Assembly (NCBI RefSeq): GCF_014204755.1
Contig: NZ_JACHLZ010000001.1
Coordinates: 1,550,001 to 1,614,000 of the forward strand
Reading direction: 5' to 3'
Length of the DNA: 64,000 nt
Source: Brachybacterium aquaticum
GTDB taxonomy: Bacteria; Actinomycetota; Actinomycetes; Actinomycetales; Dermabacteraceae
Below, one piece after another: positions 16,106-55,668 of the stretch. How positions within the stretch are numbered: position 1 is the stretch's first letter; each line of letters opens with the position of its first letter. The notes below the pieces were generated by a model. The model ran no database searches, was not told the origin of the DNA, and was given only the letters and a program-made list of their open reading frames with translations. Position numbers and translations under genes: made by a program.

Positions 16106-16171
16106 GCTGCTGTGCTCGATCGCGCTGCTGTGCTCGATCGCGCTGCTGTGCTCGATCGCGCTGCTGTGCTC
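16106..16171. repeat. 18-bp tandem repeat, 3.7 copies, at the 3' end of the ATPase gene
   Basis: Three identical copies of GCTGCTGTGCTCGATCGC (16106-16123, 16124-16141, 16142-16159), then 12 nt of a fourth copy that runs into the stop codon of the ABC ATPase (TCA at 16170). On the minus strand the first unit gives TGA-GCACAGCAGC and the later units CGA-GCACAGCAGC, so the stop belongs to the array by one base change. Confidence 0.95.
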
Positions 16172-17417
16172 AGCCGTCCGCGGCGGCAGCGTTCTCGATC
16201 TCGCGCTGACGGTCCTCGGCGGCGCGGCGGGTGAGCTCCGCGCCCTTCTCCTCGTCGCGGGTGAGGTTCTCACCGGTCGAGACGTCGAAGACGTGCAGCT
16301 TGCGGGTGTCGACCCAGAGCTTCGCCTCGTTGCCGCCGCGGATGCGGCTGGCGGAGCTGAGGGTGACGACGACCTGAGGTGGGATCTCGTCCTGGTCGAG
16401 GTCCTTCGCGAGCTCGTCGAGGACCTCGGCGACCTTGGGGTCCTTCTCGTAGTCGATGTAGCCGTACTGCTCGTTGCCGAGCCACTCGGTGTGGGTGGGG
16501 GTGGCGGTGAGTTCGGTGCCGTGCTCGAGCAGCGCCTCGTCCACGAACTCGAGGTCCTCGAAGTGCTCGGGCCGCACGCCGATCAGCACGAGGTCCTTGC
16601 CGCGGGCGGCCTCGATGACGCGGTCCGGCGCGGAGAGGTCCCCGATGGGGGTGCGCAGGCGTCCGTCGGCCTCCCGCGCGGGCAGGAAGTTCATCGAGGG
16701 CGAGCCGATGAAGCCGGCGACGAACAGGTTCGCGGGCTGCTCGTAGAGCTCTCGCGGGGAGGCGACCTGCTGCAGGCGGCCCTTCTTCAGCACCGCGACC
16801 CGGTCGCCGAGGGTCATCGCCTCGGTCTGGTCGTGGGTGACGTAGACGCTGGTGATGCCGAGGCGGCGCTGCAGCTGCGCGATCTGGGTGCGCATCTGGC
16901 CGCGCAGCTTGGCGTCGAGGTTCGACAGCGGCTCGTCGAAGAGGAAGGCGTCGGCGTTGCGGACGATCGCCCGGCCCATCGCCACGCGCTGGCGCTGACC
17001 GCCGGAGAGGTTGCCGGGCTTGCGCTCCAGGTGGTCGTCGAGCCCGAGCATCGACGAGGCGTGGCGCACGCGCTTGTCGATCTCGTCCTCGGAGACGTTG
17101 TTCTTGCTCAGCCGCATCGGGAAGGCGATGTTGTCGTACACCGTCAGGTGCGGGTAGAGCGCGTAGTTCTGGAACACCATGGCGAGGTTGCGGTCGCGGG
17201 GCGCGATCTCGTTGACGCGCCTGCCGTCGATCCGCAACTCGCCGTCGGTGATGTCCTCGAGGCCGACGATCATCCGCAGCAGCGTCGACTTCCCGCAGCC
17301 CGAGGGGCCGACGAGGATCACGAACTCGCCGTCGGCGATGTCGAGGCTGACGTCGTTCACGGCGGGGAAGCCGTCGTCGTACTTCTTGACCAGGTTCTGG
17401 ATCTCGATGGTGGCCAT
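16170..17417 (-). CDS. Sugar ABC transporter ATP-binding protein (SugC/MsiK/UgpC type)
   Basis: Energises an importer for sugars. 415 residues. Walker [10 protein letters not shown] at 37-45, signature [15 protein letters not shown] near 135, Walker [14 protein letters not shown] near 155, H-loop in [15 protein letters not shown]. After residue 240 comes the C-terminal MOBE/TOBE regulatory region ([11 protein letters not shown]). ATG at 17417. Order on the minus strand is binding protein, two permeases, ATPase, as in mycobacterial lpqY-sugA-sugB-sugC. The gap to the upstream permease is 21 nt. Confidence 0.9.
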
Positions 17418-17438
17418 GGCCGGTGGTACCTCCTGGGG

Positions 17439-18281
17439 TCAGCCCTTGACCGCGCCCTGCGTCAGACCGGAGACGATCTGGCGCTGGAAGAGCACGACGA
17501 TGATGATGATGGGGATGGTGACGATGATCGCGGCGGCCGAGATCGCGCCGGTGGGCTCCTCGAACTGCGAGGCGCCGGTGAAGAAGGCCAGCGCCGCCGG
17601 GACCGGCCGCGCGGCGGACGTCGACGTCAGCGAGATGCCGTAGACGAAGTCGTTCCAGGCGATGAAGAACGCGATGATCGCGGTCGTGAACACGCCGGGC
17701 AGCGCGAGCGGGACGATGACCTTCCGGAAGGCCTCGAAGCTGGTTGCGCCGTCGACCTGGGCCGCGCGCTCGAGATCCCAGGGGATCTGCTGGAAGTACG
17801 CGGCGAGGGTGTAGATCGAGATCGGCAGGGTCAGTGAGAGGTACGGGATGATCAGGCCGGCCCAGGTGTCGTACAGGCCGATGGTGCGCCACAGGTTGAA
17901 CAGCGGCGTGACGATCGAGATCACCGGGAACATCGACACGCCGAGCGCGCTGAAGAGCACCAGGCGCTTACCCGGGAAGTCCAGGCGGGCGATGGCGTAG
18001 GCGCACAGGGTCGCCAGCACCACCGCGATGGCGGTGGCGATCAGGGTGATGCCGATCGAGTTGCGCAGCGCCGGCAGGAACAGGTCCCGCGCGGAGCCGG
18101 CGAAGATCTGCGTGTAGTTGTCCAGCACGAAGCTCGTGGGCAGGAAGCGTCCGGTGGTGAGGTCGCCGGTGGCCTTGAACGAGGTCATCAGGATGGAGAC
18201 CAGCGGCCCCAGCGTGTACACCAGCACCACGACGGTGATCGCGATCCAGCCGACCTTCTGCTTGGTGGTCATGCCCTTCAT
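17439..18281 (-). CDS. Sugar ABC transporter permease (SugB/MalG type)
   Basis: 280 residues, six membrane helices: first at about 10-32 after the basic MTTKQK, then the conserved permease core. The EAA loop that contacts the ATPase reads ERAAQVDGATSFEAFRKVIVPLALPG near 185-210. The C-terminal half has WNDFVYGISLTS, typical of the MalG branch. The gene starts 1 nt before the stop of the partner permease gene ends its reading (18281 versus 18283), so it is cotranslated. Confidence 0.9.
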   Translation of the reverse strand: MKGMTTKQKVGWIAITVVVLVYTLGPLVSILMTSFKATGDLTTGRFLPTSFVLDNYTQIFAGSARDLFLPALRNSIGITLIATAIAVVLATLCAYAIARLDFPGKRLVLFSALGVSMFPVISIVTPLFNLWRTIGLYDTWAGLIIPYLSLTLPISIYTLAAYFQQIPWDLERAAQVDGATSFEAFRKVIVPLALPGVFTTAIIAFFIAWNDFVYGISLTSTSAARPVPAALAFFTGASQFEEPTGAISAAAIIVTIPIIIIVVLFQRQIVSGLTQGAVKG

Positions 18282-18282
18282 C

Positions 18283-19248
18283 TCAGCGTCCCTCCCCCGA
18301 GGTCAGATCGACCTTGAAGCCCTTGATCGCGACGATCGCGATGCCGATCACGCACAGGAACAGCACCACGGAGATCGCCGAGCCCATCCCGATCTCGAGC
18401 CGGCCGATCGAGGTGCGGTATGCCAGCAGCGAGAGGACCTCGGTGCCGTAGGCGCCGTTGGTCATGATGAACACGTTGTCGAAGATGCGGAAGGCGTCCA
18501 GGGCGCGGAACAGGACCGCGACCATGATCGCCGCCTTCATGTTCGGCAGGACCACGCGGCGCATGATCTCCCAGCGGGTCCCGCCGTCCACGCGAGCGGC
18601 CTCGGTGAGCTCACCGGGGACCTGTGCGAGGCCGGACAGCAGCAGCAGGGATATGAACGGGGTGGTCTTCCAGATCTCGCTGAGCATGATCACGGTCAGC
18701 GCCGGGGCCGCCGAGCCGAACCAGTTGAAGCTGTCCTCCACGAAGGGCAGCCACGAGTTCACGAAGCCGGTGTTGATGTCGAAGGCGAAGAACCACGCGA
18801 AGGCGGAGACCACGGTGATCGTGCCGTAGGGCACGAGGATCGCGGTGCGCAGCAGGCCGCGCAGCTTCGTGATCGCGTTGTGCATCACCAGCGCCAGGAC
18901 GAAGCCGAGCACGAGCTCGACCGCGACGGTGACCAGGGTGATCAGCACCGTGACGCCCAGGTCCTTCCAGAACACCGGGTCGGTGAAGAGCACGCCGTAG
19001 TTGGCCAGGCCCACGAACTCGCGCTCGTCGGGGGCGGTGAGGCGGTAGGAGAACAGGGAGTCGAAGAACGCCTGGACGATCGGGTAGACGGTCACGGCGA
19101 CCATCACCACGAAGGCCGGGGCGGCCAGCATGATCCCGAGGCGGCGCTCCGCCCGGGCGCGGTCGCTGAGCGGCGCCTTCTTCGGCTTCCGACGCTCCTC
19201 GACCGGCGGGTCCGCCGCTCTCGTCGGTGCGGCTGCGGTCTCGCTCAC
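18283..19248 (-). CDS. Sugar ABC transporter permease (SugA/MalF type)
   Basis: 321 residues. About 35 hydrophilic N-terminal residues, then six membrane helices (first at 38-60, IMLAAPAFVVMVAVTVYPIV). EAA loop: TEAARVDGGTRWEIMRRVVLPNM near 225. GTG at 19248 overlaps the stop of the binding-protein gene (GTGA). Forms a heterodimeric channel with the product of 17439-18281. Confidence 0.9.
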   Translation of the reverse strand: MSETAAAPTRAADPPVEERRKPKKAPLSDRARAERRLGIMLAAPAFVVMVAVTVYPIVQAFFDSLFSYRLTAPDEREFVGLANYGVLFTDPVFWKDLGVTVLITLVTVAVELVLGFVLALVMHNAITKLRGLLRTAILVPYGTITVVSAFAWFFAFDINTGFVNSWLPFVEDSFNWFGSAAPALTVIMLSEIWKTTPFISLLLLSGLAQVPGELTEAARVDGGTRWEIMRRVVLPNMKAAIMVAVLFRALDAFRIFDNVFIMTNGAYGTEVLSLLAYRTSIGRLEIGMGSAISVVLFLCVIGIAIVAIKGFKVDLTSGEGR

Positions 19249-20552: not shown

Positions 20553-20649
20553 GGTCTTCGCTCCTCCTCGTCGAGCCGGCGCGGGGAACGGATGCGCGAG
20601 GACCTCTGCGATGAGGTCCGGCGCTCCGGAGGGGGCCGGATGACGCCCG

Positions 20650-20678
20650 AGACTATGCCGCACGTCACAGGCTCGCAA
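20650..20678 (-). promoter_or_regulatory. Promoter of the sugar ABC operon (TTGCGA-N17-TAGTCT)
   Basis: On the minus strand -35 TTGCGA (20678-20673) and -10 TAGTCT (20655-20650) are spaced by 17 nt. The start would be near 20643, giving a leader of about 90 nt. I see no clear repressor palindrome next to it. Confidence 0.6.
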
Positions 20679-20696
20679 ATCGGGCGCGCCGACAAT

Positions 20697-20719
20697 CCCG
20701 TCGGAGCGGGGCCGACGGG
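20697..20719 (-). terminator. Hairpin downstream of the ABC-F gene
   Basis: Stem CCCGTCGG/CCGACGGG (8 bp) with a 7-nt loop, between the end of the ABC-F gene and the sugar operon promoter. The right arm is part of a GGCCGACGGG 10-mer (20710-20719). Confidence 0.5.
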
Positions 20720-24337: not shown

Positions 24338-24345
24338 GTGGCGCA

Positions 24346-30401: not shown

Positions 30402-31313
30402 ATGGACGACCTCTCCCCCGCGCTCGTCGCTGACGAGCTCACCCTCAGCTACGGCGCCGTCCGCGCCCTGGACGGCCTGAGCCTGACCGCCGAGCGCGGT
30501 CGGGTCACGGCGCTCCTGGGCCCCAACGGTGCCGGCAAGACCACCTCCATCTCCTGCGCGACGGGACTGCTGCGGCCCGACGGCGGCACCGTGCGGGTCC
30601 TCGGCGAGGACCCCTGGCGCGCCGGACCCGAGCACCGTGCCCGGGTGAGGGTGATGATCCAGGACGGCGGTCTGGTCTCGGGCACCTCCGCGATGTCCCT
30701 GCTGCGCTACGGCGCGACCCTGCACGCGGCGCCGCTCGACGTCGACCAGGTCGCCGAGCACCTCGGCATCGACGAGTTCGGCCGCACCCTGGTGCGCCGG
30801 CTCTCCGGCGGCCAGCGCCAGCGCCTGGCCCTGGCGCTTGCGATCATCGGCCGCCCCGACCTCGTGTTCCTCGACGAGCCGACGGCCGGCATGGACCCCG
30901 CGATCCGCAAGCGCGTGCGCACCCTGATCCGGGGCCTCGCCCGCACCGGCACCGCGGTGGTGCTGACCACCCATCTCATGGACGACGTCACCGGTCTCGC
31001 CGACGCGGTCCACGTCATCGCCCGCGGGAAGGTCGTCGCCTCCGGCTCCGTGCAGGAGGTCATCAGCGCCCACCGTTCCCGCGACGGCGGTCTCACCGTG
31101 CAGGCGACCGCCACGGGCGTGGACCCCGCCGTCGCCCCTGCGCTCGAGGCCGACCTGCGCGCCGCGGCGGCCCGCCACGGCGCCTCCCTCGAGGTCACCG
31201 CCGGCGGCGCCGCCGATCTGGAGAGCGTGCTGCTGGACCTCATGGAGGAGGCCGACGCCACCGCCCGTGCGGGGCGCAGCCCGGACACCACCGCGACGGA
31301 GGAGACGCGATGA
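30402..31313 (+). CDS. ABC transporter ATP-binding protein (exporter type, ctaA-linked)
   Basis: 303 residues. Walker A GPNGAGKTT near 43, Q-loop region, signature [15 protein letters not shown] near 128, Walker B VFLDEPTAGMDPAI, H-loop TTHLMDDV. The C-terminal 70 residues are outside the ABC core and end in an alanine/threonine tail. TACCAT lies 9 nt upstream of the ATG and could be a -10. Its stop overlaps the permease start. In mycobacteria Rv1458c-Rv1457c-ctaA has the same order; substrate unknown. Confidence 0.88.
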   Translation: MDDLSPALVADELTLSYGAVRALDGLSLTAERGRVTALLGPNGAGKTTSISCATGLLRPDGGTVRVLGEDPWRAGPEHRARVRVMIQDGGLVSGTSAMSLLRYGATLHAAPLDVDQVAEHLGIDEFGRTLVRRLSGGQRQRLALALAIIGRPDLVFLDEPTAGMDPAIRKRVRTLIRGLARTGTAVVLTTHLMDDVTGLADAVHVIARGKVVASGSVQEVISAHRSRDGGLTVQATATGVDPAVAPALEADLRAAAARHGASLEVTAGGAADLESVLLDLMEEADATARAGRSPDTTATEETR

Positions 31314-32164
31314 CCGAGCCGACCACCGCCCCTGCGAACGGGGCCGAGGCGAACGGGTCCGCGACGAACGGGGCCGCGACGAGCGGCTCCACCCCGTCGG
31401 CCCCCGAGGACCGGAGCCCGCGCCCCGCCCCGCCGCTGCGACGCATCCTCGCCCACGCCGCTCTCGAGGCGCGGATCCTGCTGTCCAACGGCGAGCAGCT
31501 CATGGTCGCGATCGTGATGCCCGCCATGGTGCTCATCGGGCTGCGCCTGCTGCCACTTGGCCGCATCGAGGGCGTGCCGGCGATCGACACCGCGGTTGCC
31601 GCGACCTTCGCCACCGCCCTGATCTCCACGTCCTTCACCTCGCAGGCGATCATGACCGGCTTCGACCGGCGCAACGGCGTGCTGCGCTGGGTGGCGACCA
31701 CGCCGCTGGGTCGGGACGGGTACCTGGCCGGCAAGATCCTCGCCACGCTCGCCACGCATGTGCTGCAGGTGGTCGTGCTCGGCCTGCTCGCGCTCGTGCT
31801 GGGGTGGCGCCCGGAGCTGCTCGGTCTGCTGGCCGCGGTGCCGGTGTGGCTGGTCGGGACCGTCGCCTTCGGTGCGCTCGGCCTGCTGGTCGCCGGGACC
31901 CTGCGCACCGAGGCCGTGCTGGCCGTGTCGAACCTGGTGTTCGTGGTGCTGGTCGCCGCCGGCGGCGTCGCCTTCCCCGCCGCCGCCTATCCGCGTTTCC
32001 TGCGGGGCCTGGTGGACCTGCTGCCCTCCGGGGCGCTCGGGGAGCTGCTGCGCGCCTGCCTCGGGAACGGCCCCTTCTCCGCCGGTTCGGTGGTCGTGCT
32101 GCTGCTGTGGGCGGTCGCCGGGGTCGCCGCGGTGATCCGCTGGTTCCGCTGGACGGACGTCTGA
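31310..32164 (+). CDS. ABC-2 type transporter permease (ctaA-linked)
   Basis: 284 residues: about 45 hydrophilic, low-complexity N-terminal residues (NGAEANGSATNGAATSG), then six membrane helices typical of ABC-2 permeases, with RNGVLRWVATTPLGRDGYLAGKI as the conserved coupling region near residue 120. Partner of 30402-31313 through an ATGA overlap. A GGCCGACGGG 10-mer in reverse orientation (31393-31402) lies in the N-terminal linker. A 20-bp repeat starts at its stop codon. Confidence 0.88.
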   Translation: MTEPTTAPANGAEANGSATNGAATSGSTPSAPEDRSPRPAPPLRRILAHAALEARILLSNGEQLMVAIVMPAMVLIGLRLLPLGRIEGVPAIDTAVAATFATALISTSFTSQAIMTGFDRRNGVLRWVATTPLGRDGYLAGKILATLATHVLQVVVLGLLALVLGWRPELLGLLAAVPVWLVGTVAFGALGLLVAGTLRTEAVLAVSNLVFVVLVAAGGVAFPAAAYPRFLRGLVDLLPSGALGELLRACLGNGPFSAGSVVVLLLWAVAGVAAVIRWFRWTDV

Positions 32165-32200
32165 GCGACGGGCCGGGCGCCTGAGCGACCGGACGGGTGC
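32161..32200. repeat. 20-bp tandem duplication starting at the permease stop codon
   Basis: CTGAGCGACGGGCCGGGCGC (32161-32180) and CTGAGCGACCGGACGGGTGC (32181-32200) agree at 17 of 20 positions. The TGA of the first unit is the permease stop codon (32162-32164); the second unit repeats that TGA in another frame. Confidence 0.85.
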
Positions 32201-34070: not shown

Positions 34071-34123
34071 CCAGAGCGCGACCCACTGGTCCGGCCAAGC
34101 CGTGCCGGGCCCGGGCGGCCGAC

Positions 34124-34174
34124 CGACGAGGTCCGTCAACCGACGAGGTCCGTCAACCGACGAGGTCCGTCAAC
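34124..34174. repeat. 17-bp tandem repeat, 3 perfect copies, at the 3' end of dxs
   Basis: CGACGAGGTCCGTCAAC three times (34124-34140, 34141-34157, 34158-34174), followed by a decayed unit that leads into the end of dxs. Read on the minus strand each unit contains CTCGTCGG-TTGA, very like the end of dxs itself (GAGCTCGTCGGCTGA, Leu-Val-Gly-stop). The array therefore looks like repeated copies of the last codons of dxs, including the stop. Confidence 0.95.
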
Positions 34175-34203
34175 CGGCCGGGTCTGCCGGCCGGCGAGGT
34201 CTC

Positions 34204-36069
34204 TCAGCCGACGAGCTCCTCGAGCGTCGCGGCGATCCCTGCGGCGTCCAGGCCCTGCGCGGTGAGGATCGCATCGCGCTTGGCGTGCGGGATGAACTCC
34301 AGCGCGATGCCCAGCGTGCGCACCACGGGCGCGGGCGCTGAGAGCGTGGCCCGTCGGCCGAGCGCCGCTGCGAGCGCCGCGCCGATCCCCCGCTCGCCGA
34401 GGCCGTCCTCGAGCGTGACGACGGCGCGGGCAGAGGCGGCGAACTCGAGCAGCGCCGGGGAGAGCGGCAGCGCCTGGACCGGGTCGAGCACGAGCACGTT
34501 CAGCGCCGGGTGCTGGGCGCGCAGCTGCTCGGCAGCGGTCACGGCGCGGTCGGCGAGGGCGCCGATGCTCACCAGCAGCACGTCGACCGCGGCCTCCGCG
34601 TCGCCCGAAAGCACGTCGCCGGCGGGCAGCGCGGCGAGGGCGGGGAGGTCCGACGGGCAGGCACCCTTGGGGAAGCGCACGATCGAGGGGCCGGAGGTCG
34701 CGAGCGCGGCGGGCACGGCGGCATCCAGGCGTGCGCCGTCGCGCGGGGCCCAGAGGCTGAGGCCCGGCACCTGGGAGGCGAGGGCGAGGTCCCAGATGCC
34801 GTGGTGGCTGGGACCGTCATCGCCGGTGACGCCGGCGCGGTCCAGAGTGATCGTCACGTCCTCGCCGTGCAGGGCGAGGTCCAGCAGCAGCTGGTCGTGG
34901 GCGCGGTTCAGGAACGTGGCGTAGAGCGCGACGAGGGGCCTGCGGCCGCCGGCGGCGAGGCCGGCGGCGGTGTCCAGGGCGAGCTGCTCGGCGATGCCGA
35001 CGTCCAGCACCCGTCCCGGCATCTCCTGCTGCAGGGGGGTCAGGCCCACGGGGTCGACCATGGCGGCGCTGACGGCGACCACGCGCTCGTCGGCGCGGGC
35101 TGCCTCGAGCACCGTCTCGCCCAGGCGCGCGCTCCAGGTGCGGGCGGCCGGCTTGGTGGCCTCCTCCCCCTCCAGGGAGAACGGCCCGGTGGCGTGCCAG
35201 TGATCCACGGCGTCCGCCTCGGCGCGGGCGAAGCCGGCGCCCTTGCGGGTCAGCACGTGCACGACCACGCCGGAGCTGTCCGGGTCCTCGGCGGCGGCGC
35301 GGGCGCGGTGCATCGCGGACGCGAGCGCGCCGTGGTCATGCCCGTCGATCGGGCCGAGGTAGGTCAGGCCCAGCCCCGTGAACACGTCCTCCCCCGCGCG
35401 GAGCCGGCCCTCGCGCAGCGCCGCGAGATGGCGGGCGATCCCGCCGACGGTCGGGGCGTAGGAACGGGTGTTGTCGTTGAGGACCACGACGGTGCGGGAG
35501 CCGGTGTCGGAGGCGAGCTCGTTGAGCGCCTCGAGCCCGACGCCGCCGGTGAGGGCGCCGTCGCCGATCACCGCGACCGCCACGCCGGCGGTGCCGGCGA
35601 GGCGGTGGGCGCGGTCGATGCCGTGGGCCCAGGCGATGGAGCCAGAAGCATGGGAGTTCTCGACCACGTCATGGGGAGACTCGCCGCGGTCGGGGTAGCC
35701 GGAGATGCCGCCCTGCCGGCGCAGACCCTCGAGATCGGCGCGGCCGGTGAGCATCTTGTGGACGTAGGCCTGGTGGCCGGTGTCGAAGACGATCGGCTCC
35801 TGCGGGGAGCGGAACTCGCGGTGCAGGGCGAGGGTCAGCTCGACCACGCCGAGGTTCGGGCCCAGGTGGCCGCCGGCCTCGGAGCAGATCTCCACCAGGC
35901 GGCGACGCAGGGTGCGGGCGAGCCCGGGCAGCTGATGCGCGGGCAGGGCGCGCAGCGCCTCGGGGCTCTCGGGGATCGCCGGCTCCTCCGGTGCGGAGGC
36001 GGGCGAGGACGGGGTCACGCTCGCTGCGGGTCGCGACACTGCGACAGCTCGCTGCTCGGTGGTGGACAC
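34204..36069 (-). CDS. dxs: 1-deoxy-D-xylulose-5-phosphate synthase
   Basis: First enzyme of the MEP isoprenoid pathway, thiamine diphosphate dependent. 621 residues. Blocks: GGHLGPNLGVVELTLALH, DTGHQAYVHKMLTGR, VIGDGALTGGVGLEALN with the ThDP-binding GDGALTGG, DNTRSYAPTVGG, and in the transketolase C-terminal half FLNRAHDQLLLDLAL and GDDGPSHHGIWDLAL. I chose the GTG at 36069 because GGGAGGA lies 7 nt upstream. An 80-residue in-frame extension upstream shows no similarity and no ribosome binding site. Confidence 0.95.
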   Translation of the reverse strand: MSTTEQRAVAVSRPAASVTPSSPASAPEEPAIPESPEALRALPAHQLPGLARTLRRRLVEICSEAGGHLGPNLGVVELTLALHREFRSPQEPIVFDTGHQAYVHKMLTGRADLEGLRRQGGISGYPDRGESPHDVVENSHASGSIAWAHGIDRAHRLAGTAGVAVAVIGDGALTGGVGLEALNELASDTGSRTVVVLNDNTRSYAPTVGGIARHLAALREGRLRAGEDVFTGLGLTYLGPIDGHDHGALASAMHRARAAAEDPDSSGVVVHVLTRKGAGFARAEADAVDHWHATGPFSLEGEEATKPAARTWSARLGETVLEAARADERVVAVSAAMVDPVGLTPLQQEMPGRVLDVGIAEQLALDTAAGLAAGGRRPLVALYATFLNRAHDQLLLDLALHGEDVTITLDRAGVTGDDGPSHHGIWDLALASQVPGLSLWAPRDGARLDAAVPAALATSGPSIVRFPKGACPSDLPALAALPAGDVLSGDAEAAVDVLLVSIGALADRAVTAAEQLRAQHPALNVLVLDPVQALPLSPALLEFAASARAVVTLEDGLGERGIGAALAAALGRRATLSAPAPVVRTLGIALEFIPHAKRDAILTAQGLDAAGIAATLEELVG

Positions 36070-36262: not shown

Positions 36263-36297
36263 CGCGCCCCGGAACCCATGACGAGTTCCGGGGCGCG
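36263..36297 (-). terminator. Terminator hairpin downstream of aconitase
   Basis: 13-bp perfect stem CGCGCCCCGGAAC / GTTCCGGGGCGCG with a 9-nt loop. It lies about 120 nt past the aconitase stop, beyond the 54-bp repeats. Confidence 0.6.
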
Positions 36298-36322
36298 AGG
36301 GGCAACGGTCACGCTCTACTTC

Positions 36323-36416
36323 TTGCGCGAGCTCCTACCGCTCGTACCTCGCAGCACGTCGCTCACGCAGCACCTGTTGCGCGAGCTCCTACCGCTCGTT
36401 CCTCGCAGCACGTCGC

Positions 36417-36424
<8 letters not shown>
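36323..36424. repeat. Tandem duplication (period 54 bp) of the aconitase 3' end
   Basis: Two 48-bp copies, 36323-36370 and 36377-36424, separated by 6 nt and identical except one base. The second copy contains the aconitase stop codon (TCA on plus at 36417-36419); the first is downstream of the gene. Each copy holds a small hairpin CGAGC-TCCTACC-GCTCG. The copies begin TTGCGCGAGCTCCTACCGCT. Confidence 0.97.
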
Positions 36425-39194
<2,770 letters not shown>

Positions 39195-47770: not shown

Positions 47771-47839
47771 GCTCATGCGCCGGGCGGCAGGGAGCTCACG
47801 CCCCCAGCGGCTCGGAGCTCACGCCCCCGGCGGCTCGGA
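47771..47839. repeat. 23-bp tandem repeat, 3 copies, across the stop of the GNAT/ligase gene
   Basis: Units at 47771-47793, 47794-47816 and 47817-47839 of the form GCTCACGCCCCCRGCGGCTCGGA; the last two differ at one base and the first is more decayed. The stop codon of the upstream gene (TCA on plus at 47819) lies in the last unit, and the TCA is repeated in the next unit (47796) and kept as TCA in the first (47773). Confidence 0.95.
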
Positions 47840-50542
47840 GAGGGTGCGGCGGGCGCCGTCGGTGCGGTTCGGGGCGGCGGCCAGGCGCGCGGAGGCGCCG
47901 ACGACGCTCACGCCGTCCTGCGCGACCAGCACCGGGTACAGCTCGAGGGAGGCGAGCTCGGGCAGGTCCTCGGCAAGCAGTCCCACCCGGACCACGAGGT
48001 CGGCGAGCGCATCGCGATCCGCGGGCGGCAGCCCGCGCGTGCCGCGCAGCTTGACGGCGGTGGCGGGAGCGTCGACGAGCCGGTGCGCGCCCTGCTCGCT
48101 GAACGGCGGGATCGCGTAGGCGATGTCGTCGAGCAGGTCGGTGGCGTCCCCGGCCACGGAGAGGGACACGACGGGGCCGAGCGAGGGGTCCTCGACGCTG
48201 CGCACCACCATCGGCACCCCGGCGGGGGCCATGGCCTGCACCTCGAGCGGGGCGGAGGAGAAGGCGAGGTCGCGGCGCATGGACTGCAGGGCGTGGCGCA
48301 GCTGCACCTCGTCGGGGATGTCCAGGCGCACCCCGCCGAGATCGGCGCGGTGGCGCAGCACCGGGTCGGTGCTCTTCAGCGCGACGGGGTAGCCGATCTC
48401 CGCGGCCGTGGCCAGGGTGTCGTCCTCGTCGGTGACGGTGCGGCTGGGCAGGGTCGCGATGCCGTAGGCGGCCAGCAGCGCGGCGGTGTCCTCGGGGCCG
48501 AGCACCAGCTCGCTGCCGAGGTCCTCAGGCACCAGCCGGTCCACGAGCTCGCGCGCGGCAGCGCGGTCGAGGTCGTCGCGGCGCGCGGGCTCCTCGTCCT
48601 CGGCCGACGGGCGGGTGGCAGCGGCGAGCATCCCGGCGCCGACTCGGACCACGGCGTAGGGGGTGGCATGCACGGGCGGGAGCGCATCGTCCACGCGGAC
48701 CTGCTGCTGGACCTCGGCGAAGCGCTCCGCGGTGGTGACGACGCACACCAGCAGCACCACCTCGGAGTGGCGCGCGACGACCGCCATCTGGCGCAGCGTG
48801 TCGGTGGCCTCGGCGGTCTGCGGGTCGACGATGCCCGCGATCACCATGTCGACCTCGCCGAGGGCGGCCATGGAGGTGAAGGCGCGCTGGACGAGCCGCG
48901 GGTCCGGGGACAGCGGGACGGAGCGGTTGTCGGCCACGACCTGCAGTCCGGCGGCGTCGGCCGCACCGCGCAGGGAGGCACCGAGCGCGGCGGTGTTGGA
49001 GAGCAGCCCGACCCTCGGGCCGAGCGGGAGGCCCTGGCGGCCGATCGCGTCGACGACGTCCAGCAGGTGGTCGACCCCACGGGTCTGGACCACCCCGGCG
49101 GAGGCGAGGACCTGGTCCAGGGCGCGCCGGGGCAGGCTGGAGGTGCGCACGTCGTGGCCGGGCGGGAGGTTCGACTCGATGCCGGGCGGGCGCAGCACGA
49201 TGAGCGGCGTGGAGCGGGTGAGGCGCCGTGCGATCCGCGTGAACTTGCGCGGGTTGCCCATGGACTCCAGCGCCAGCCCGATCACCCCCACCTCCTCGTC
49301 GTCCTCCCAGTGCTGGAGGGTGTCGTTGAGGGAGACGTCCGCGCGGTTGCCGACGCCCACGAACTCGTGCAGACCGATGCCGCGGGAGTCCGTGCCGGCC
49401 AGGAGCATGGCGGACAGGGCGGTGGACTGGCCGGCGAGCGCGACCCGGCCGGGGCGGGGCATGTGCGGGGCGAGCGAGAGGCTGATCGCGTCGTCCCCCG
49501 TGCGCAGGAAGCCGAGGGATCCGGGGCCGAGCAGGCGCATGCCGTGCAGGCGGACCCGGGCGACGAGCTCACGCTGGAGTTTCCGGCCGTCCTCGCTCTC
49601 GGAGAAGCCCTCGGTGGGGATCAGGACGCTCTTGACGCCGATCCTGGCGCACTCCTCGATCGCCTCGAGGCAGGCCTCGGGGCGCAGGGCGATGACCGCG
49701 AGGTCGACGGTGCCGGGCACGTCGGTGATCCGTCCCCAGGCGCGGTGGCCGCGCAGCTCGAACGCCTCGCGGGCCACGAGGTGGACGGTCCCGTCGTAGC
49801 CGGAGGACTCGAGCGCGGTGAGGAACCGCCCGCCCACGGAATCGGCGCGGGAGGACACGCCGACCAGGAGCACGGACTCGGGGTGGAGCAGCCGCTCCAT
49901 GGCGCGGGCCTCGGCGCGGTGCTCGCGCTCGGCCATCACCTCGAGGGAGCGGGCGGTGGGGTCGATGCGGAAGGACACCATCACCACCCCGTCGTCCAGG
50001 GTGCGGTCCACGTCGAAGCCGGCCTCGGTGAAGACCTTGATCATCTTGGTGTTCTGCGGGAGCACCTCGGCGGTGAACACGTCGATGCCGCGCTCGCGCG
50101 CTGCGGCGGCGAGGTGCTCGAGCAGCACGGAGCCGAGGCCGGAGCCCTGGCGGGAGTCGGCGACGTTGAAGGCGACCTCGGCCGAGCGCGGGTCGACCCG
50201 GTCGTAGCGGCCGACGGCGACGATGTCCTCCCCCACCAGCACGACGAACGCAACCCGGTCCACGTGGTCGACGTGGGTGAAGCGGGTGAGGTCCCGCTCG
50301 GACAGGCGCGGCATGGGGGCGAAGAAGCGCAGGTACCGCGACTGCTCGGACTGGCGCTGATGGAACTCCTGGAGCGCGTCGGCGTCGCTGGGCAGGATGG
50401 GGCGCAGATGCGCGGCGGAGCCGTCGCGCAGGGCGATGTCGGCCTCCCAGTGCGCGGGATAGGCAGGAGACGCGGGATGCGTGTCCGCGCCGCCGCGGGC
50501 ACGCCGTCGCAGGGAGCGCAGGCCGTCGCGTCTGTCCACCAT
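47819..50542 (-). CDS. GNAT acetyltransferase fused to an NDP-forming acyl-CoA ligase
   Basis: 907 residues. GNAT domain about 30-195 (HLRPILPSDADAL, acetyl-CoA site NVADSRQGSGLGSVLLEHL). Then a CoA-binding Rossmann domain (SVLLVGVSSRADSVGGRFL), a ligase domain, and an ATP-grasp region (about 640-880, GPEDTAALLAAYGI, ATAAEIGYPVALKS). Similar fusions are protein lysine acetyltransferases (Pat type) in which the ligase part is regulatory. The SHTGA phosphohistidine motif of working ligases is not recognisable; the matching place reads GHDVRTSSLPRRA. So the ligase half is probably not catalytic. Divergent from parC. Confidence 0.88.
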   Translation of the reverse strand: MVDRRDGLRSLRRRARGGADTHPASPAYPAHWEADIALRDGSAAHLRPILPSDADALQEFHQRQSEQSRYLRFFAPMPRLSERDLTRFTHVDHVDRVAFVVLVGEDIVAVGRYDRVDPRSAEVAFNVADSRQGSGLGSVLLEHLAAAARERGIDVFTAEVLPQNTKMIKVFTEAGFDVDRTLDDGVVMVSFRIDPTARSLEVMAEREHRAEARAMERLLHPESVLLVGVSSRADSVGGRFLTALESSGYDGTVHLVAREAFELRGHRAWGRITDVPGTVDLAVIALRPEACLEAIEECARIGVKSVLIPTEGFSESEDGRKLQRELVARVRLHGMRLLGPGSLGFLRTGDDAISLSLAPHMPRPGRVALAGQSTALSAMLLAGTDSRGIGLHEFVGVGNRADVSLNDTLQHWEDDEEVGVIGLALESMGNPRKFTRIARRLTRSTPLIVLRPPGIESNLPPGHDVRTSSLPRRALDQVLASAGVVQTRGVDHLLDVVDAIGRQGLPLGPRVGLLSNTAALGASLRGAADAAGLQVVADNRSVPLSPDPRLVQRAFTSMAALGEVDMVIAGIVDPQTAEATDTLRQMAVVARHSEVVLLVCVVTTAERFAEVQQQVRVDDALPPVHATPYAVVRVGAGMLAAATRPSAEDEEPARRDDLDRAAARELVDRLVPEDLGSELVLGPEDTAALLAAYGIATLPSRTVTDEDDTLATAAEIGYPVALKSTDPVLRHRADLGGVRLDIPDEVQLRHALQSMRRDLAFSSAPLEVQAMAPAGVPMVVRSVEDPSLGPVVSLSVAGDATDLLDDIAYAIPPFSEQGAHRLVDAPATAVKLRGTRGLPPADRDALADLVVRVGLLAEDLPELASLELYPVLVAQDGVSVVGASARLAAAPNRTDGARRTLSEPPGA

Positions 50543-50645
50543 GGCGCGATCCTAGCTGGGAGAGGCCCCGGATTGACGGGATTCACGTCCCCGACCAGGG
50601 GCCGGGTCCACGGATCGTGGCCGGTCATGCGCCATGATGTCCCCC

Positions 50646-53102
50646 ATGGCCCGTTCACGCAGCACCACTCCGCCCGCCGGGGACGACGCGGTCGACGAGA
50701 CGATCGTCGACATCGACGTCACCAGCGAGATGGAGTCCTCGTTCCTCGAGTACGCCTACTCCGTGATCTACTCGCGGGCCCTTCCCGACGCCCGTGACGG
50801 TCTCAAGCCCGTCCAGCGCCGCATCCTGTACATGATGGCGGAGATGGGGCTGCGCCCCGACAAGGGCCACGTGAAGAGCCAGCGCGTGGTCGGCGAGGTG
50901 ATGGGCAAGCTCCATCCCCACGGCGACACCGCGATCTACGACGCGCTGGTGCGCATGGCGCAGAGCTTCAACATGCGCCTGCCGCTCGTGGACGGGCACG
51001 GCAACTTCGGCTCGCTGGACAACGGCCCCGCGGCCCCGCGCTACACCGAGGCGCGCCTGGCGAAGGCGGCGCTGCTCATGACGGACTCGCTGGACGAGGA
51101 CGTCGTGGACATGGTCCCCAACTACGACAACCAGCTGCTGCAGCCCGAGGTGCTCCCCGCCCAGTACCCGAACCTGCTGGTCAACGGCGCCTCCGGCATC
51201 GCGGTGGGCATGGCGACCAATATGGCGCCCCACAATCTCGTCGAGACGATCGCCGCGGCCCGCCACCTGATCGACCATCCGGAGGCGGAGCTCGAGGAGC
51301 TGATGCGCTTCGTGCCCGGCCCGGACCTGCCCACCGGCGGGCGGATCGTGGGCCTGGACGGGATCCGCGACGCGTACCGCACCGGCCGCGGCTCGTTCAA
51401 GATGCGCGCCACCACCCGGATCGAGAACGTCACCTCGCGCCGCAAGGGCATCGTGGTCACCGAACTGCCCTACCAGGTCGGTCCCGAGCGGCTCGCGGAG
51501 AAGCTGCGCGACGCGGTGCAGGCCAAGAAGGTCCAGGGCATCACCGACTACCAGGACCTCACCGACCGCCACCACGGCCTGCGCCTGGTGATGACGGTCA
51601 AGTCCGGCTTCGACCCCGAGGCGGTGCTCGAGCAGCTCTACAAGCACACGCCGCTGGAGGAGTCCTTCGGCATCAACAACGTCGCCCTGGTGGACGGCCA
51701 GCCGCGCACCATGGGGCTCAAGCAGCTGCTCGAGGTGTTCGTCGACCATCGGCTGAAGGTGGTGCGCCGCCGCACCGAGCACCGCCTGCGCAAGCGCAAG
51801 GACCGCCTGCACCTGGTCGAGGGCCTGCTGCTGGCGATCCTTGACATCGACGAGGTCATCCAGATCGTGCGCAGCAGCGACGATGCGGAGACCGCCCGCA
51901 CGCGCCTGATGCAGGTCTTCGACCTCACCGAGGTGCAGGCCGAGTACATCCTCGAGTTGCGCCTGCGCCGTCTGACGAAGTTCTCCCAGATCGACCTCGA
52001 GGCCGAGCGGGACGACCTGCGCGCCGAGATCGAGCGGCTCGAGGAGATCCTCGGGTCCGACGAGGTGCTGCGCCGTCTGGTCTCCGACGAGCTCGCCGCG
52101 GTCGCCGCCGAGCACGGCGACACCCGCCGCACCGTCCTGCTGGAGAGCGCCTCGGCGCCGGTGGCGAAGGCGGGTACGTCCCTCGAGGTGGCCGACGAGC
52201 CCTGCGGCGTGCTGCTGACCGGCACGGGTCTGGTGGCCCGCGTCGCCGGGGAGGGGCCGCTGCAGCGCGACGGGCAGCGCAGCTCCCACGACGTGATCGT
52301 CTCGGACGTGCGCACCTCCACCCGCTCCGAGGTCGGTGTGGTCACCGACCGCGGGAGGGTGCTGCGCCTGTCGGTCGTGGACCTGCCCTCGCTCGCCCCC
52401 ACCGCCGGCGCGCCCTCCCTCGCCGGCGGCACGCGCCTGGCGGACCTGGTGGACCTGGAGAAGGACGAGCGGGCGCTGGGCCTGATCCGCCTCGGCGAGG
52501 AGGACATCGCCCGCGGCGGCGCGATCGCGCTGGGCACCCGCCAGGGTGTGGTCAAGCGCGTCCAGCTGGACTTCCCCCGCACCGACGGGTTCGAGATCAT
52601 CTCGCTCAAGGACGGCGACGCCGTGGTGGGCGTGGTCGATCTCGAGGACGACGGCGACCTGGACCTGTGGTTCATCACCTCCGACGCGCAGCTGCTGCAC
52701 TTCCCCGCCTCCGGCATCCGCCCGCAGGGCCGCGCGGCGGGCGGCGTGGCCGGCATCAAGCTCGCGGACGGCGCGCAGGTGCTGAGCTTCGGCACGATCG
52801 ACGTCACCGCCCCGGCGGACGTCGTCACCGTCGCCGGCAGCTCCGCGACCCTGCCGCTGCTGCAGACCGGGTCGCTGAAGGTCTCCTCGCTCGGGGAGTT
52901 CCCGGCCAAGGGCCGCTCCACCGCCGGTATGCGCTGCCACCGCTTCCTGCGCGGCGAGGACTCACTGATCGGCGCCTGGGTGGTGCCTCATCCCGCCCGC
53001 GCCTCCTCGGAGGCCGGTCAGCCGATCGACCTGCCCGAGCCCACCGGGCGCCGCGACGGCTCCGGCACCCCGGTCTCGGTCCCGATCGCGTCCGTCGGCT
53101 GA
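50646..53102 (+). CDS. parC: Topoisomerase IV subunit A (ParC/GyrA-type)
   Basis: DNA cleavage and rejoining subunit of a type II topoisomerase. 818 residues from the ATG at 50646. Catalytic tyrosine in [15 protein letters not shown] near residue 126; breakage domain begins [27 protein letters not shown]; the quinolone-contact helix reads [15 protein letters not shown]. The C-terminal third is a beta-pinwheel ([21 protein letters not shown]). No QRRGGRG GyrA box is visible, which with parE nearby favours ParC. The ATG pair at 50634 is an alternative; CATGAT 7 nt before 50646 suggests a leaderless start there. Confidence 0.9.
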
Positions 53103-53137
53103 TCGCCGACGGCTGATCGCCGCCGGTTGATCCCGGC
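53096..53137. repeat. 14-bp tandem repeat, 3 copies, across the parC stop codon
   Basis: CGGCTGATCGCCGA (53096-53109), CGGCTGATCGCCGC (53110-53123) and CGGTTGATCCCGGC (53124-53137). The TGA of the first unit is the parC stop (53100-53102); the other two units repeat it at 14-nt steps, hence in the other reading frames. Confidence 0.92.
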
Positions 53138-53182
53138 CGACGGGCCCTCCCGGTCGCGCCCGTCCCGGTAAGCCCGTCGGCC
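53135..53182. terminator. Inverted pair of GGCCGACGGG 10-mers after parC
   Basis: GGCCGACGGG at 53135-53144 and CCCGTCGGCC at 53173-53182 form a 10-bp perfect stem around a 28-nt loop, 30 nt after the parC stop and before the next plus-strand gene. Likely the parC terminator. Confidence 0.55.
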
Positions 53183-53212
53183 GCTCCCGGCCCGGCGTGG
53201 AAGACTTCTGGC

Positions 53213-54358
53213 ATGCCTGACGTCCTCCGCTCCCGCCGGGTCACCGTCGCCAGCCGCACCGAGTCCTTCACCCTCGCGCTCGGCGTCGCCGGCGTGCTCG
53301 TCGGCCTCGTGGTCGGCCTCGCCGTGCTACGCGGCACTTCGACGCTGTCCGGGGAGGGCTCGATCGGGCAGCTCGCCGCCGTCACCTCCGGAGGCACCTC
53401 CGCCGTGGTCGCCGCGGTGACGATGGCGGTGATCATGCCACAGCGCCGGCCCTGGGTGCGCACCGTGCCCCGGCTGCGCCGGGCGCTGACGATCCTCGGC
53501 CCCTCCCTCGTCTACGCGGTCCTCGCGCTGCTGCTGACCTCGGCGATGTACGGCATCCTCGCCGAGGCGTTCCGGGGCGTGGCGCTGGACCGCTTCGCGA
53601 GCACCTTCTGGGTGGCGCTGACCACCGGGGCGTGGGCGTACGTGGTCGCGGCGAGCTCCTGGGCCCTGTCCGGGCGGTCGCTGGCGACCCTGCTGATGGT
53701 CTTCCTCACCGTCGGGGTGCTCGCCGCGGCGATGCTGTCCCCGGACCCGTACTGGTGGGAGCAGTACTTCTCCCAGCTCGGCGAGGGTGCGGACACCGCC
53801 GGTCGCACCTTCAACCTCACCCTGCTGCTGACCGGTCTCGCCTTCGTGGCGGTCGGGGACTTCGTCGCCCACGACCTGCAGCGCTGGACCGACGCGGCCG
53901 GGGAGCCGCGCTGGAAGGTGCACCTGGTGCGCGGCACCCTCATCGCCCTCGGCGCGTTGCTGGCGCTCGTCGCGCTCGTCTCCCGCACCGTGTCGGTGGA
54001 CTGGCACAACCGCCTGGCCGAGATGCTCGTGGTGGTGTTCGCTCTGGCGCTGATCGTGTTCCCGGTGCTGCTGCGCCGCCTGCCGGGCGGGCTGCTCGTC
54101 TTCACCGGGGTCGCCTTCGCGGTACTCGTGATGCTGATCGTGCTGTTCGAGGGCGTGGACTACCTGAACATGACCGCCTTCGAGCTCGGCGCGGCGGTGA
54201 CGGTGTACATCTGGCTGCTCCTGTTCATCCGCACCGTCTCCGCGGCCGGGGAGGGCGTCGCCGCGGAGGACGATGCAGAGGACGATGCCGCGCAGGACGA
54301 TGCCGCGGATGATGCGGTGACGCACGGCGGCGCCTCCCCCGCCCGGTTCGAGGTGTGA
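53213..54358 (+). CDS. Multi-pass membrane protein, DUF998-like
   Basis: 381 residues with about nine or ten membrane helices (first about 22-43). The central part (YWWEQYFSQLGEGADTAGRTFNLTLLLTGL) follows the DUF998 pattern of a helix start, an S-LG loop and an FN helix. Ends in an acidic, alanine-rich cytoplasmic tail (AEDDAEDDAAQDDAADDA). Function unknown. AAGACT, 6 nt before the ATG, resembles the -10 boxes of leaderless genes here. Same strand as parC and the mutarotase-like gene, 35 nt apart from the latter. Confidence 0.65.
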   Translation: MPDVLRSRRVTVASRTESFTLALGVAGVLVGLVVGLAVLRGTSTLSGEGSIGQLAAVTSGGTSAVVAAVTMAVIMPQRRPWVRTVPRLRRALTILGPSLVYAVLALLLTSAMYGILAEAFRGVALDRFASTFWVALTTGAWAYVVAASSWALSGRSLATLLMVFLTVGVLAAAMLSPDPYWWEQYFSQLGEGADTAGRTFNLTLLLTGLAFVAVGDFVAHDLQRWTDAAGEPRWKVHLVRGTLIALGALLALVALVSRTVSVDWHNRLAEMLVVVFALALIVFPVLLRRLPGGLLVFTGVAFAVLVMLIVLFEGVDYLNMTAFELGAAVTVYIWLLLFIRTVSAAGEGVAAEDDAEDDAAQDDAADDAVTHGGASPARFEV

Positions 54359-54393
54359 CCTCCGCCGGGTCCGGGCGGCGGGAGCGTGCGACG

Positions 54394-55281
54394 ATGCAGG
54401 GCATGAACACTCCTGGCACCGCCGCTCCTGTTCCCGCAGTGTCGCTCCCCGAGGGGGTGACCCTCGGCTCCGCCCACGGCGTGGACGCCGCGCTGGTGGA
54501 CACCCCCGCCGTCACCGCCACCCTGCTCCTGGACGGCGCGCACCTGACCAGCGCCGTCCCCGCCGGGGAGCAGGACCTGCTGTGGCTCAGCCCCGCCTCC
54601 GCCTTCGGCCCAGGCGAGGCCGTGCGCGGCGGCGTGCCGCTGGTGGGCCCCTGGTTCGGTCCCGGCCGCGACCAGTCCCAGGAGGTCAAGCACGGCTGGT
54701 TGCGCAACGTGCGCTGGGACCTCACCTCCGCCGAGCGCAGCGGCGACGAGGTCACCCTCACCCTCACCTCCCCCGCCGACCGCACCGAGCTGTCCGCCAC
54801 CCTCGAGGTCCGCCTCGGCGCCGAGGTGTCGCTGGAGCTGACGATCACCGCCGGGGAGCAGCCGCTCGAGCTCGAGGCGGCCCTGCACACCTACCTCGCC
54901 GTCGGTGACGTGCGCCGCATCGAGATCCAGGGACTCGAGGGCGCGGACTACCTCGACAACACCCGCGGCCTCACCCCCGACACCCTCGCCCACGCGCCGC
55001 TGCACCTCACCGAGGCGACCGATCGCGTCGTCGACTCCACCGCGGAGGTCACCGTCGTGGACGAGGCCGCCGGGCGGCGCGTCGTCTCCACCCCGCGCGG
55101 CACCTCCCGCACCGTGGTGTGGAACCCCTGGGACACGCTGGTGACCGGGATGGCCGACATCCCCGACGAGGCCTGGCCCGAGTTCGTGTGCATCGAGCCC
55201 GCCGCCGCGAAGGAAGGCTTCGTGGCCCTCGAGCCCGGTGCCTCCCACAGCCTCGGCGTCACCTACCGCATCGAGCACTGA
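54394..55281 (+). CDS. D-hexose-6-phosphate mutarotase-like protein (aldose 1-epimerase family)
   Basis: 295 residues. Fold type of YeaD-like hexose-6-phosphate epimerases: GAHLTSAVPAGEQDLLWLSP, GEAVRGGVPLVGPWFGP, HGWLRNVRWDL with the catalytic-type His, ALHTYLAVGDVRRIEIQGL and EFVCIEPAAAKEG with the conserved Glu. I take the ATG at 54394 because GGAG is 9 nt upstream; the ATG at 54403 is an alternative. Sugar substrate inferred from the family. Confidence 0.88.
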   Translation: MQGMNTPGTAAPVPAVSLPEGVTLGSAHGVDAALVDTPAVTATLLLDGAHLTSAVPAGEQDLLWLSPASAFGPGEAVRGGVPLVGPWFGPGRDQSQEVKHGWLRNVRWDLTSAERSGDEVTLTLTSPADRTELSATLEVRLGAEVSLELTITAGEQPLELEAALHTYLAVGDVRRIEIQGLEGADYLDNTRGLTPDTLAHAPLHLTEATDRVVDSTAEVTVVDEAAGRRVVSTPRGTSRTVVWNPWDTLVTGMADIPDEAWPEFVCIEPAAAKEGFVALEPGASHSLGVTYRIEH

Positions 55282-55434
55282 CGCCGCAGCCCGGGACGCC
55301 GCGCCGCATCGTCCGCTGACCGGGCACGACGCGAGACTCCCGACCGCTCCGGTACCCGGTCGCCCCTTCAGCGCGGCCGGGTCCCGGCGTTTATTCCCTG
55401 GACCCGGTAGCGTCGCCGGTGCTCCACTGGAGCC

Positions 55435-55575
55435 ATGGACACGCACCGCACACCGCTCATGACCCCGGCCCTCCCGGCCGCGGCGACGCGCGGCGTCGCG
55501 GCGTCCCTCCCCCGGCTCCTCGGATCCCCACGGATCCTCGGTGCGGCCGACGGAGGCCGCCCCGCCGCCGCCTGA
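55435..55575 (+). CDS. Possible 46-residue peptide
   Basis: ATG at 55435 preceded by GGAG (CTGGAGCC) and by TAGCGT (55408-55413), which would put a start near 55420. The product is alanine/proline/arginine-rich (MDTHRTPLMTPALPAAATRG...), no membrane segment and no family recognised. Its TGA starts a set of CTGACGCCAC repeats, as at the ends of real genes in this window, which is the main reason to list it. It may well be non-coding. Confidence 0.3.
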   Translation: MDTHRTPLMTPALPAAATRGVAASLPRLLGSPRILGAADGGRPAAA

Positions 55576-55668
55576 CGCCACGCCGGCCGACGCCACCTTC
55601 GGCTGTCGACACCACCTGACGCCACCGTCGGCCGTCGCCGCCGGCTGACGCCACGTCGGCCGACGTCC
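55572..55668. repeat. CTGACGCCAC direct repeats (irregular, about 27-45 bp steps)
   Basis: CTGACGCCAC occurs at 55572, 55617 and 55644, each followed by a GTCGGCCG/GCCGGCCG stretch. The first TGA is the stop of the 46-codon ORF. Confidence 0.75.

Follow-up and report, generated by a model that had tools for sequence, protein, structure and literature searches.

The nearest kinds of repeat to the element described in this work are the BOX elements, the mycobacterial interspersed repetitive units (MIRUs) and the repetitive extragenic palindromes (REPs). MIRUs insert at TGA-type stop/start junctions. The available parts of the sources describe MIRUs as 40-100-bp units present at 41 places in H37Rv, with copy number varying at 12 of these (PMC2734929); the BOX elements of Streptococcus pneumoniae as lying, in 36 of the 58 coding sequences that one overlaps, at the 3' end, where the repeat supplies the stop codon (PMC3049150); REPs and bacterial interspersed mosaic elements, of the GTAG and CGTC super-families, as short dispersed intergenic hairpins with proposed roles in termination and mRNA stabilisation (PMC3733652); and the TAACTGA direct repeats of the Beggiatoaceae as tandem and stop-bearing, some of them overlapping gene ends (PMC4679880). 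Here we analysed gene ends in a 64,000-nucleotide stretch of the Brachybacterium aquaticum genome (the window; positions 1,550,001-1,614,000 of a single contig of 3,449,336 bases), in which several genes end in short tandem repeats. Two distinct phenomena are probably present, namely private tandem duplications and a dispersed structured element, and the 54-bp array at the end of acnA is a member of the latter family, which is apparently undescribed. Among titles and starts of abstracts in the open-access literature, no description of the hairpin element or of the gene-end array pattern was found.

The features at the acnA end, all on the minus strand, are the following.

36376..36425, minus strand: acnA hairpin element copy 1 (model R1, 65.7 bits; host identified by Pfam aconitase; structure from covariation), with the last codon and stop of acnA (36417-36419) inside its basal stem
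36322..36371, minus strand: acnA hairpin element copy 2, 54 nt downstream (model R1, 66.4 bits)
36308..36314, minus strand: terminal direct repeat GCGTGAC, where the last-codon/stop heptamer appears for the third time, altered at one position
36264..36296, minus strand: intrinsic-terminator-like hairpin 3' of the element, seen as an inverted repeat in the sequence

The two copies match at 12/12 bases at the 54-bp period, and the terminal direct repeat pairs with the inverted repeat at 6/7 positions. A unit consists, in order, of a first direct repeat (DR1), CGACG, a 6-bp hairpin with the loop GAGGNACGA, GGAG, an inverted repeat (IR), a spacer of mostly 9-12 nt and a second direct repeat (DR2), and nearly every unit follows this DR1-core-IR-spacer-DR2 plan with a tandem period of 53-56 nt. 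DR1 is made of the gene's last bases, TGA and usually a T or G; DR2 is DR1 repeated, and IR is complementary to it. The basal stem, P1, has seven pairs, formed between the inverted repeat and a stretch 30 nt before it that takes in the stop codon, the bases preceding it and the one base following it; the upper stem, P2, has six pairs and closes the loop.

Support for this structure comes from an alignment of 40 sequences, drawn from 42 distinct 50-mers, in which 93.7% of P1 and P2 cells are paired, against 85.3% in shuffled alignments and 27-57% in slid versions. The covariation score was 0.280 versus 0.136 in shuffles (0/500 as high), with 36 cells changed on both sides versus 11.3 and six pairs changed on both sides versus 3.9 (2/500), in a test that takes the aligned rows as independent when they are in fact related. 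Left unaided, RNAalifold returned 12 pairs, most of them the same ones, six with changes on both sides. Since the core pattern was used to collect members, P2 is partly selected, but P1 lies outside that pattern. One pair changes from U-A to U-G in 10/40 sequences and another is U-G in 37/40, which favours RNA over DNA, and we infer that the element acts in RNA. Stems that contain stop codons are not in general excess: at 523 gene ends, 7-bp stems starting from the stop occur at 0.4-1.0%, depending on loop class, versus 0.4-0.6% after shuffling, and in a wider look at such stems 4/16 belonged to the acnA hairpin family. Rfam 15 gave no match in the window at the gathering score and none at the element in four loci up to E = 5.

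The family is dispersed over the genus. The core CGACGTRCTGCGAGGNACGAGCNGTAGGAG, with at most two mismatches, occurs 12 times in this genome and is present in 13/29 genomes searched, this one included; all 13 belong to the genus, and the reversed control pattern gave no occurrence. With a covariance model, 548 matches were found in 29 of 38 genus genomes, B. aquaticum itself counted (24/33 of the high-quality ones), with 15 here and a maximum of 49 per genome. Searches of the order and the class, run with stricter filters than the genus search, returned clear matches only in eight genus members among 198 genomes of the order, plus three others at E 5.5e-4 to 7.6e-4, and in two genus members among 296 genomes of the class, plus four single weak matches at E 1.3e-5 (36 bits) to 9.9e-4. 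By coordinates, six consecutive units occur twice in one other genus genome, at spacings of 55 and 56 nt.

What these copies share is their place. Forty-six arrays, comprising 79 of 96 matches (79 of the 548 in the genus, mostly the strongest), were placed relative to genes, and in 44 of them the stop in P1 is the stop of an open reading frame (ORF) of at least 60 codons, one of the 44 being a doubtful 78-aa ORF; the two exceptions lie at contig ends. The arrays examined have one orientation relative to the host stop and hold one copy in 20 cases, two in 20, three in five and four in one. TGA stands at the same P1 place in 45/46 first copies and 31/34 later ones, and among arrays recruited by a core pattern free of TGA, 22/23 are at a stop and one is at a contig end. 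The background was taken from a sample of this genome made of the window and 60 spaced 20-kb stretches (1.264 Mb, 37% of the genome), with genes called by an unpublished in-house codon-usage caller whose stops are more certain than its starts. In that sample, 411/902 CTGA(T/G) sites located at stops or between genes are themselves stops, so that 44/44 is not chance (1e-15 if orthologues are taken as independent, about 1e-9 with every host family counted a single time).

There are 26 host families among the arrays examined. Matches to NCBIfam or Pfam name bL31, bL9, class II aldolase, 6-phosphogluconate dehydrogenase, RF2, triose-phosphate isomerase, phosphofructokinase, glycerol kinase, phosphoenolpyruvate synthase and aconitase; seven of the hosts named in this way are 200-residue fragments, most of them below full-length cut-offs, and the other hosts were identified by eye. 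One host, first read by eye as isocitrate lyase, is 6-phosphogluconate dehydrogenase by NCBIfam. Many hosts are core genes, whose expression is probably high. At one further locus (L293:1680-1805), an FMN riboswitch (84 bits) lies directly 3' of an element array that follows a DUF721-like gene, the latter recognised by eye.

In comparison with the systems introduced above, the element resembles BOX in being a small interspersed repeat with tandem subunits, but BOX is modular, boxA-(boxB)n-boxC, whereas the hairpin element has one repeating unit and a partial terminal repeat; its stop lies in a gene-matched stem, and copy 1 begins in the host's own last codon. By the MIRU definition of 40-100-bp, dispersed, tandem and copy-variable units, it would be counted among such repeats (53-56-nt period, 1-4 copies, runs of six). 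By description only, the two differ in context, for in the part of the source available MIRUs are discussed with operons (PMC2734929), whereas the hairpin element stands at gene ends, ahead of terminators, and has a covarying hairpin. REPs are described, again in part of a source, as 20-40 bp long with an unpaired GTAG or CGTC end tag and often in opposite orientation (PMC3733652); the present units are 53-56 nt, arranged head to tail, their ends are the paired P1 arms and the GUA of GUAG falls within P2. REPs also differ in the REP-associated tyrosine transposase (RAYT), whose gene was found in none of the 38 genus genomes. The TAACTGA repeat is a single 7-nt word that mostly points toward start codons, and in the available part of its description no such hairpin is seen (PMC4679880).

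As for function, we tentatively propose, while considering it rather doubtful as a whole, that the element is a ribosome-sensing switch that shields the stop of abundant housekeeping messages and has been spread by a stop-codon-specific process that copies a heptamer. With no ribosome at the stop, P1 would close over the last codon and the stop, and the closed stem would block 3'-to-5' exonucleases before the stop codon is lost, so avoiding non-stop messages; with a ribosome covering DR1, IR would switch its pairing to DR2, so that a hairpin would remain immediately downstream. If the spreading process copies the target heptamer, each new copy would be matched to its host gene from birth. The alternative pairings are both available, since IR can pair with DR1 (P1, mean 6.27 of 7) or with DR2 (P3, 6.21, DR2 having been chosen for its pairing), against 4.80 in the control, and in last copies the best DR2 pairs with IR at 6.15 of 7 positions, also against 4.80. 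Over 75 units the mean energies are -15.9 kcal/mol for P1 with P2 and -12.9 for P2 with P3, the former combination being the more stable in 66/75.

The main rival to a function in RNA is that the family is a miniature mobile element of purely selfish character, which would home on CTGA(T/G) at stops, duplicate its target as DR1 and DR2 and have no host role; we consider this possible though not probable. Its dispersal over 26 host families and its patchiness at orthologous gene ends are what such an element would produce: by coordinates, bL31 is followed by one or two units in eight genomes (one of the matches weak) and by none in five of the genomes whose matches were listed in full in the order search. 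Direct repeats DR1 and DR2 flank most single copies, with agreement at 6 or 7 of 7 bases between DR1 and the best DR2 in 12/18, a pattern that contraction of a tandem array could also leave. Filled and empty orthologous sites occur between near relatives, four filled sites agreeing with empty sites here through the stop and 0-3 further bases and then diverging. A selfish element is less easily reconciled with the stop-codon location and single orientation of the arrays examined, with an IR that tracks gene-specific DR1 bases through compensatory changes, and with the absence of terminal inverted repeats, the inverted repeat being internal to the DR1-core-IR-spacer-DR2 plan. Mobilisation by RAYT was rejected, given that the Y1/RAYT transposase (PF01797) was found in 0/38 genus genomes and in 5/14 control genomes. 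Finally, the core is better kept than the host coding sequence: over 29 pairs of orthologous hosts, core identity is 0.964, coding flank 0.851 and spacer 0.583 (0.523 at random), with the qualifications that indels put three of the 29 coding comparisons out of register, coding identity being about 0.90 without them, and that selection by the 30-nt search pattern pushes core identity upward. Cores could also be held alike in part by conversion between copies.

A phage or plasmid as vector was likewise considered and rejected, there being no exact pattern match in viral contigs and none in plasmids. Four unverified faecal scaffolds filed as 'Bacteriophage sp.' (L329-L332; MT835570.1, MT835496.1, MT838503.1 and MT837856.1) do carry the element and supply the four filled sites mentioned above; they are chromosome-like, matching this genome in pieces at 73-93% identity (the longest, in two of them, at 88% over 3.9-4.0 kb) and with, in one, a bL9-like gene recognised by eye, and are likely bacterial chromosome filed as phage.

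Besides the two qualifications on core identity, several points weigh against this account of the element, its proposed function included. Nine of the 38 genus genomes lack a covariance-model match, the gene placement covers only the 79 of 548 matches mentioned above, and the model holds TGA columns and therefore favours TGA-bearing copies. Further pair types in the alignment number 17 versus 16.0 in shuffles, with no excess (171/500). The element is present at 3/21 acnA ends read, and at bL31 only in some species, which suits a mobile element equally or better. As DR2 copies DR1, the P3 pairing follows from the duplication and is weak evidence for a switch, and a guard or switch function is suggested by the anatomy of the unit only.

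That the element is a variant of a transcription terminator is quite unlikely. Its 3'-end location, GC-rich sequence and tandem hairpins would fit, and clusters of hairpins reportedly act as terminators according to one study (PMC8355165), but the units have no U-run, a separate terminator-like hairpin follows both the acnA element and filled sites such as L332 (by eye), and a stop codon within the stem would make termination clash with translation.

The remaining gene-end repeats are probably of a different kind. Tandem Repeats Finder (TRF; score of at least 50 for array detection), lag matching and inspection of the sequence confirmed all seven sites that an initial sequence-only reading of this DNA had named, acnA being one of them; the others are given here.

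16106..16171, minus strand: ABC ATPase array, 18-bp unit x3.7, 100% identical (TRF), starting at the stop of gene 16170-17417 (Pfam ABC_tran) and sitting between the stop and a strong hairpin
32162..32197 (end approximate), plus strand: ABC-2 permease repeat, 20-bp unit that includes the stop, 10/12 bases at lag 20; gene 31310-32164, plus strand (Pfam ABC2_membrane)
34122..34219, minus strand: dxs array, 17-bp unit x5.8 across the stop (TRF)
47784..47840, minus strand: GNAT/CoA-ligase array, 23-bp unit x2.5 across the stop (TRF), 12/12 at lag 23; gene 47819-50542, minus strand (identity from Pfam)
53092..53139, plus strand: parC array, 14-bp unit x2.9-3.4 across the stop (TRF); gene 50634-53102, plus strand (Pfam DNA_topoisoIV)
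55570..55662 (TRF 55589-55662), plus strand: CTGACGCCAC repeats 3' of a 46-codon ORF, 55435-55575

The 46-codon ORF, which the codon-usage caller did not call, has two further CTGACGCCAC copies downstream. Also present are the serial TGAs remarked on at two other genes: those following position 14179 are spaced in 14-nt steps, those following 23946 at 11 and 8 nt; the names nusB and sufT for these genes are only those given in that reading. Within the called gene 60533-61198, on the minus strand, the window also holds an in-frame 18-bp x6.4 tandem repeat (60862-60976).

Over the genome sample, arrays span 56/1,083 stop codons versus 8/1,102 start codons (Fisher p = 1.4e-10). When each array was repositioned within its own intergenic region in 1,000 rounds, the kind of shuffling that the sequence-only reading had called for, the stop-side edge lay within -25..+20 nt of the stop in 90/125 arrays of stop-bearing intergenic regions versus 58.9 expected (sd 4.2, maximum 73 of 1,000 rounds), and in 35/61 versus 14.7 (sd 3.1, maximum 25) where the region was at least 150 bp. 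A measure free of any repeat finder agrees: in 4-7% of 3' flanks a 12-base word near the stop (anchors -6 to +50) is found again at a lag of 8-40, one mismatch being allowed, versus 0-0.4% after block shuffling. The same reading had described the repeats as anchored on stop codons, and the concentration at gene ends bears this out, the focus being, however, a zone of about -20 to +20 and not the stop codon itself. Relative to the end of the stop, 43 arrays start in -20..-1 and 49 in 0..+19, that is, 0.057 and 0.071 per 20 nt per eligible gene, versus 0-0.05 (typically about 0.02) beyond +40; in long co-directional gaps (155 genes), 24 array 5' edges fall in -20..+20 versus five in +30..+110. 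Arrays might have been as common at 5' ends or inside genes as at stops; starts carry far fewer, 8 against 56, but intragenic arrays are indeed common: they make up 218/340 over the first 864 kb, and in 206 of the 218 the period is a multiple of three. The 122 arrays outside genes there have period remainders of 54/31/37 for 0/1/2 modulo three.

Most of these arrays look like harmless local duplications. With the exception of acnA, the gene-end arrays named here, and most of those elsewhere in the genome, are best read as recent private tandem duplications, private for dxs, nearly so for parC and, by extension, presumably so for the others. At 22 distinct other dxs ends of the genus (27 readable of 30 rows), no stop-spanning array with a score of at least 36 was found; the closest named DXS relatives, at 70-80% identity, are Brachybacterium records and two contigs that both belong to a single 'Actinomycetales bacterium' metagenome-assembled genome (MAG). 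Among 29 other parC ends, stop-spanning repeats with different units occur at two, a clear one scoring 59 and a weak one scoring 39; at a further two, arrays begin at +9 and +19. The suggestion that the units do not form one repeat family holds in that they differ, those of dxs and parC having been compared with relatives and that of ABC ATPase with its own genome, and fails for acnA. The idea of local duplication centred on gene ends agrees with most arrays, judging by the contrast between stops and starts, the shuffles and the spacing.

Slippage-type events would duplicate short units at gene ends, and the arrays would persist because they are tolerated in the narrow space that separates stop and terminator. 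Duplicating the stop along with its surroundings does not alter the protein, because the first copy still terminates the reading frame, and the copied TGAs would be by-products. The median distance from stop to hairpin is 36 nt at array-free ends and also 36 nt after collapsing to one unit the 25 arrays, of 85, that have a strong downstream hairpin, and thus the idea that arrays compensate for a short stop-to-terminator distance is unsupported. The private arrays resemble bacterial variable number tandem repeats or minisatellites, from which they differ in concentrating in the stop-to-terminator gap.

Tolerance may not be the whole account. Interiors of intergenic regions hold 4.5x fewer arrays per tolerated position than the stop zone (2.1x in convergent gaps), a deficit that exceeds what simple tolerance easily explains and that leaves room for a mutational hot spot, in which transcribed, untranslated DNA after the stop would suffer extra tandem duplication through R-loops or stalled polymerase. 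We regard this as a possible but somewhat doubtful explanation. Stop-spanning arrays, at 3.9 per kb of tolerated positions versus 0.86 in intergenic interiors, and the sharp peak near the stop in long co-directional gaps agree with it; against it, interior DNA also holds promoters and terminators and hence differs in tolerance, and in convergent gaps the densities are only 3.4 and 1.6. A version in which hairpins drive the duplication is unsupported, strong hairpins being not clearly commoner at array-bearing ends (44% versus 40%).

The stop bias is also uneven among genomes, a point to be set against the duplication reading. Other actinobacterial samples of 60-75% GC, seven genus members included, gave 30/1,738 stops versus 7/1,762 starts when pooled (p = 9.8e-5), but several relatives' samples show no stop excess, G009 and G023 have no arrays at either end, a mixed set gave 0/103 versus 1/103, and in freshwater MAGs averaging 48% GC arrays were found at 0/386 stops and 0/377 starts. 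Taken with the private units of dxs and parC, these results make the private arrays look like a general, species-specific by-product.

The selection for repeated stops that was first suspected, in which repeated or out-of-frame stops would maintain the arrays as back-ups, is hardly credible, having failed tests of conservation, of unit-length frame and of per-base frequency, for all that TGA is present in most units of stop-spanning arrays. In these arrays, conservation of the copied stop does not exceed that of the preceding codons: the identity of later copies to the first is 0.89-0.93 (about 0.91) at the three stop positions, 0.84-0.97 over the six upstream positions -9..-4 and 0.65-0.86 downstream. 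Among 46 stop-spanning arrays, unit lengths divide 14/14/18 by remainder 0/1/2 modulo three (23/15/18 in a looser set of 56), so that no frame is clearly preferred, and arrays that copy the stop are not more frequent per base than those beginning right after it, the 43 starts before and 49 after the stop end giving no visible advantage to copying. In array-bearing flanks, stops are spread evenly over the frames (0.417/0.383/0.417). In-frame extra stops are not in excess either, their frame being the lowest in the first 30 nt of array-free flanks, and over 60 nt they number 0.199 per flank versus a close 0.215 in dinucleotide shuffles. Selection for in-frame additional stops has been rejected in bacteria, according to the accessible part of one study (PMC6764699).

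Array-free flanks (window, L006-L045, L176-L195) do show a -1-frame excess, with 46/62/109 stops by frame in the first 30 nt (p = 4e-7), which would favour back-up stops were it not that, after 43/45/67 at 30-60 (p = 0.03) and no excess at 60-120, it reappears as 23/25/49 at 120-150 (p = 0.0015). The excess involves TGA and TAG alike and peaks at +11 (14 nt after the stop); pooled other genomes gave 183/169/214. Duplication remnants do not explain it, and relics of C-terminal frameshifts are not supported as its source, since the interval from one stop to the other carries no coding signature (mean codon log-odds of -0.275 for frame -1 versus -0.235 and -0.176).

Other repeated words were seen between genes. 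The two commonest intergenic 9-mers, CGGCCGACG and CCGTCGGCC, occur 204 and 201 times in 139 kb, at 2.5-2.8x their genic density; they build many hairpins and array units (e.g., window 16048-16064) and are perhaps a terminator word or a signal. Arrays of 125 and 62 bp (L008:7126-7426 and L032:5182-5430) have a GGCACGGTGCCTCACGCGTCGC-like word in common and apparently belong to another dispersed family; GGCACGGTGCCTCACGCGTCGC-like words also follow some stops.

Gene-end tandem duplications are thus common here and, to a lesser degree, in the other high-GC actinobacteria that were sampled, and, the arrays being private or nearly so wherever they were compared, comparison between species is needed before such arrays are read as back-up stops or regulators. 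The hairpin elements embrace the stops of many unrelated genes, with the gene's last codon forming a stem arm, and none of the RNA families searched contains them. They allow a direct test of whether bacteria shield their stop codons from 3' decay and so avoid non-stop messages, and they bear on how a small repeat homes to stop codons.

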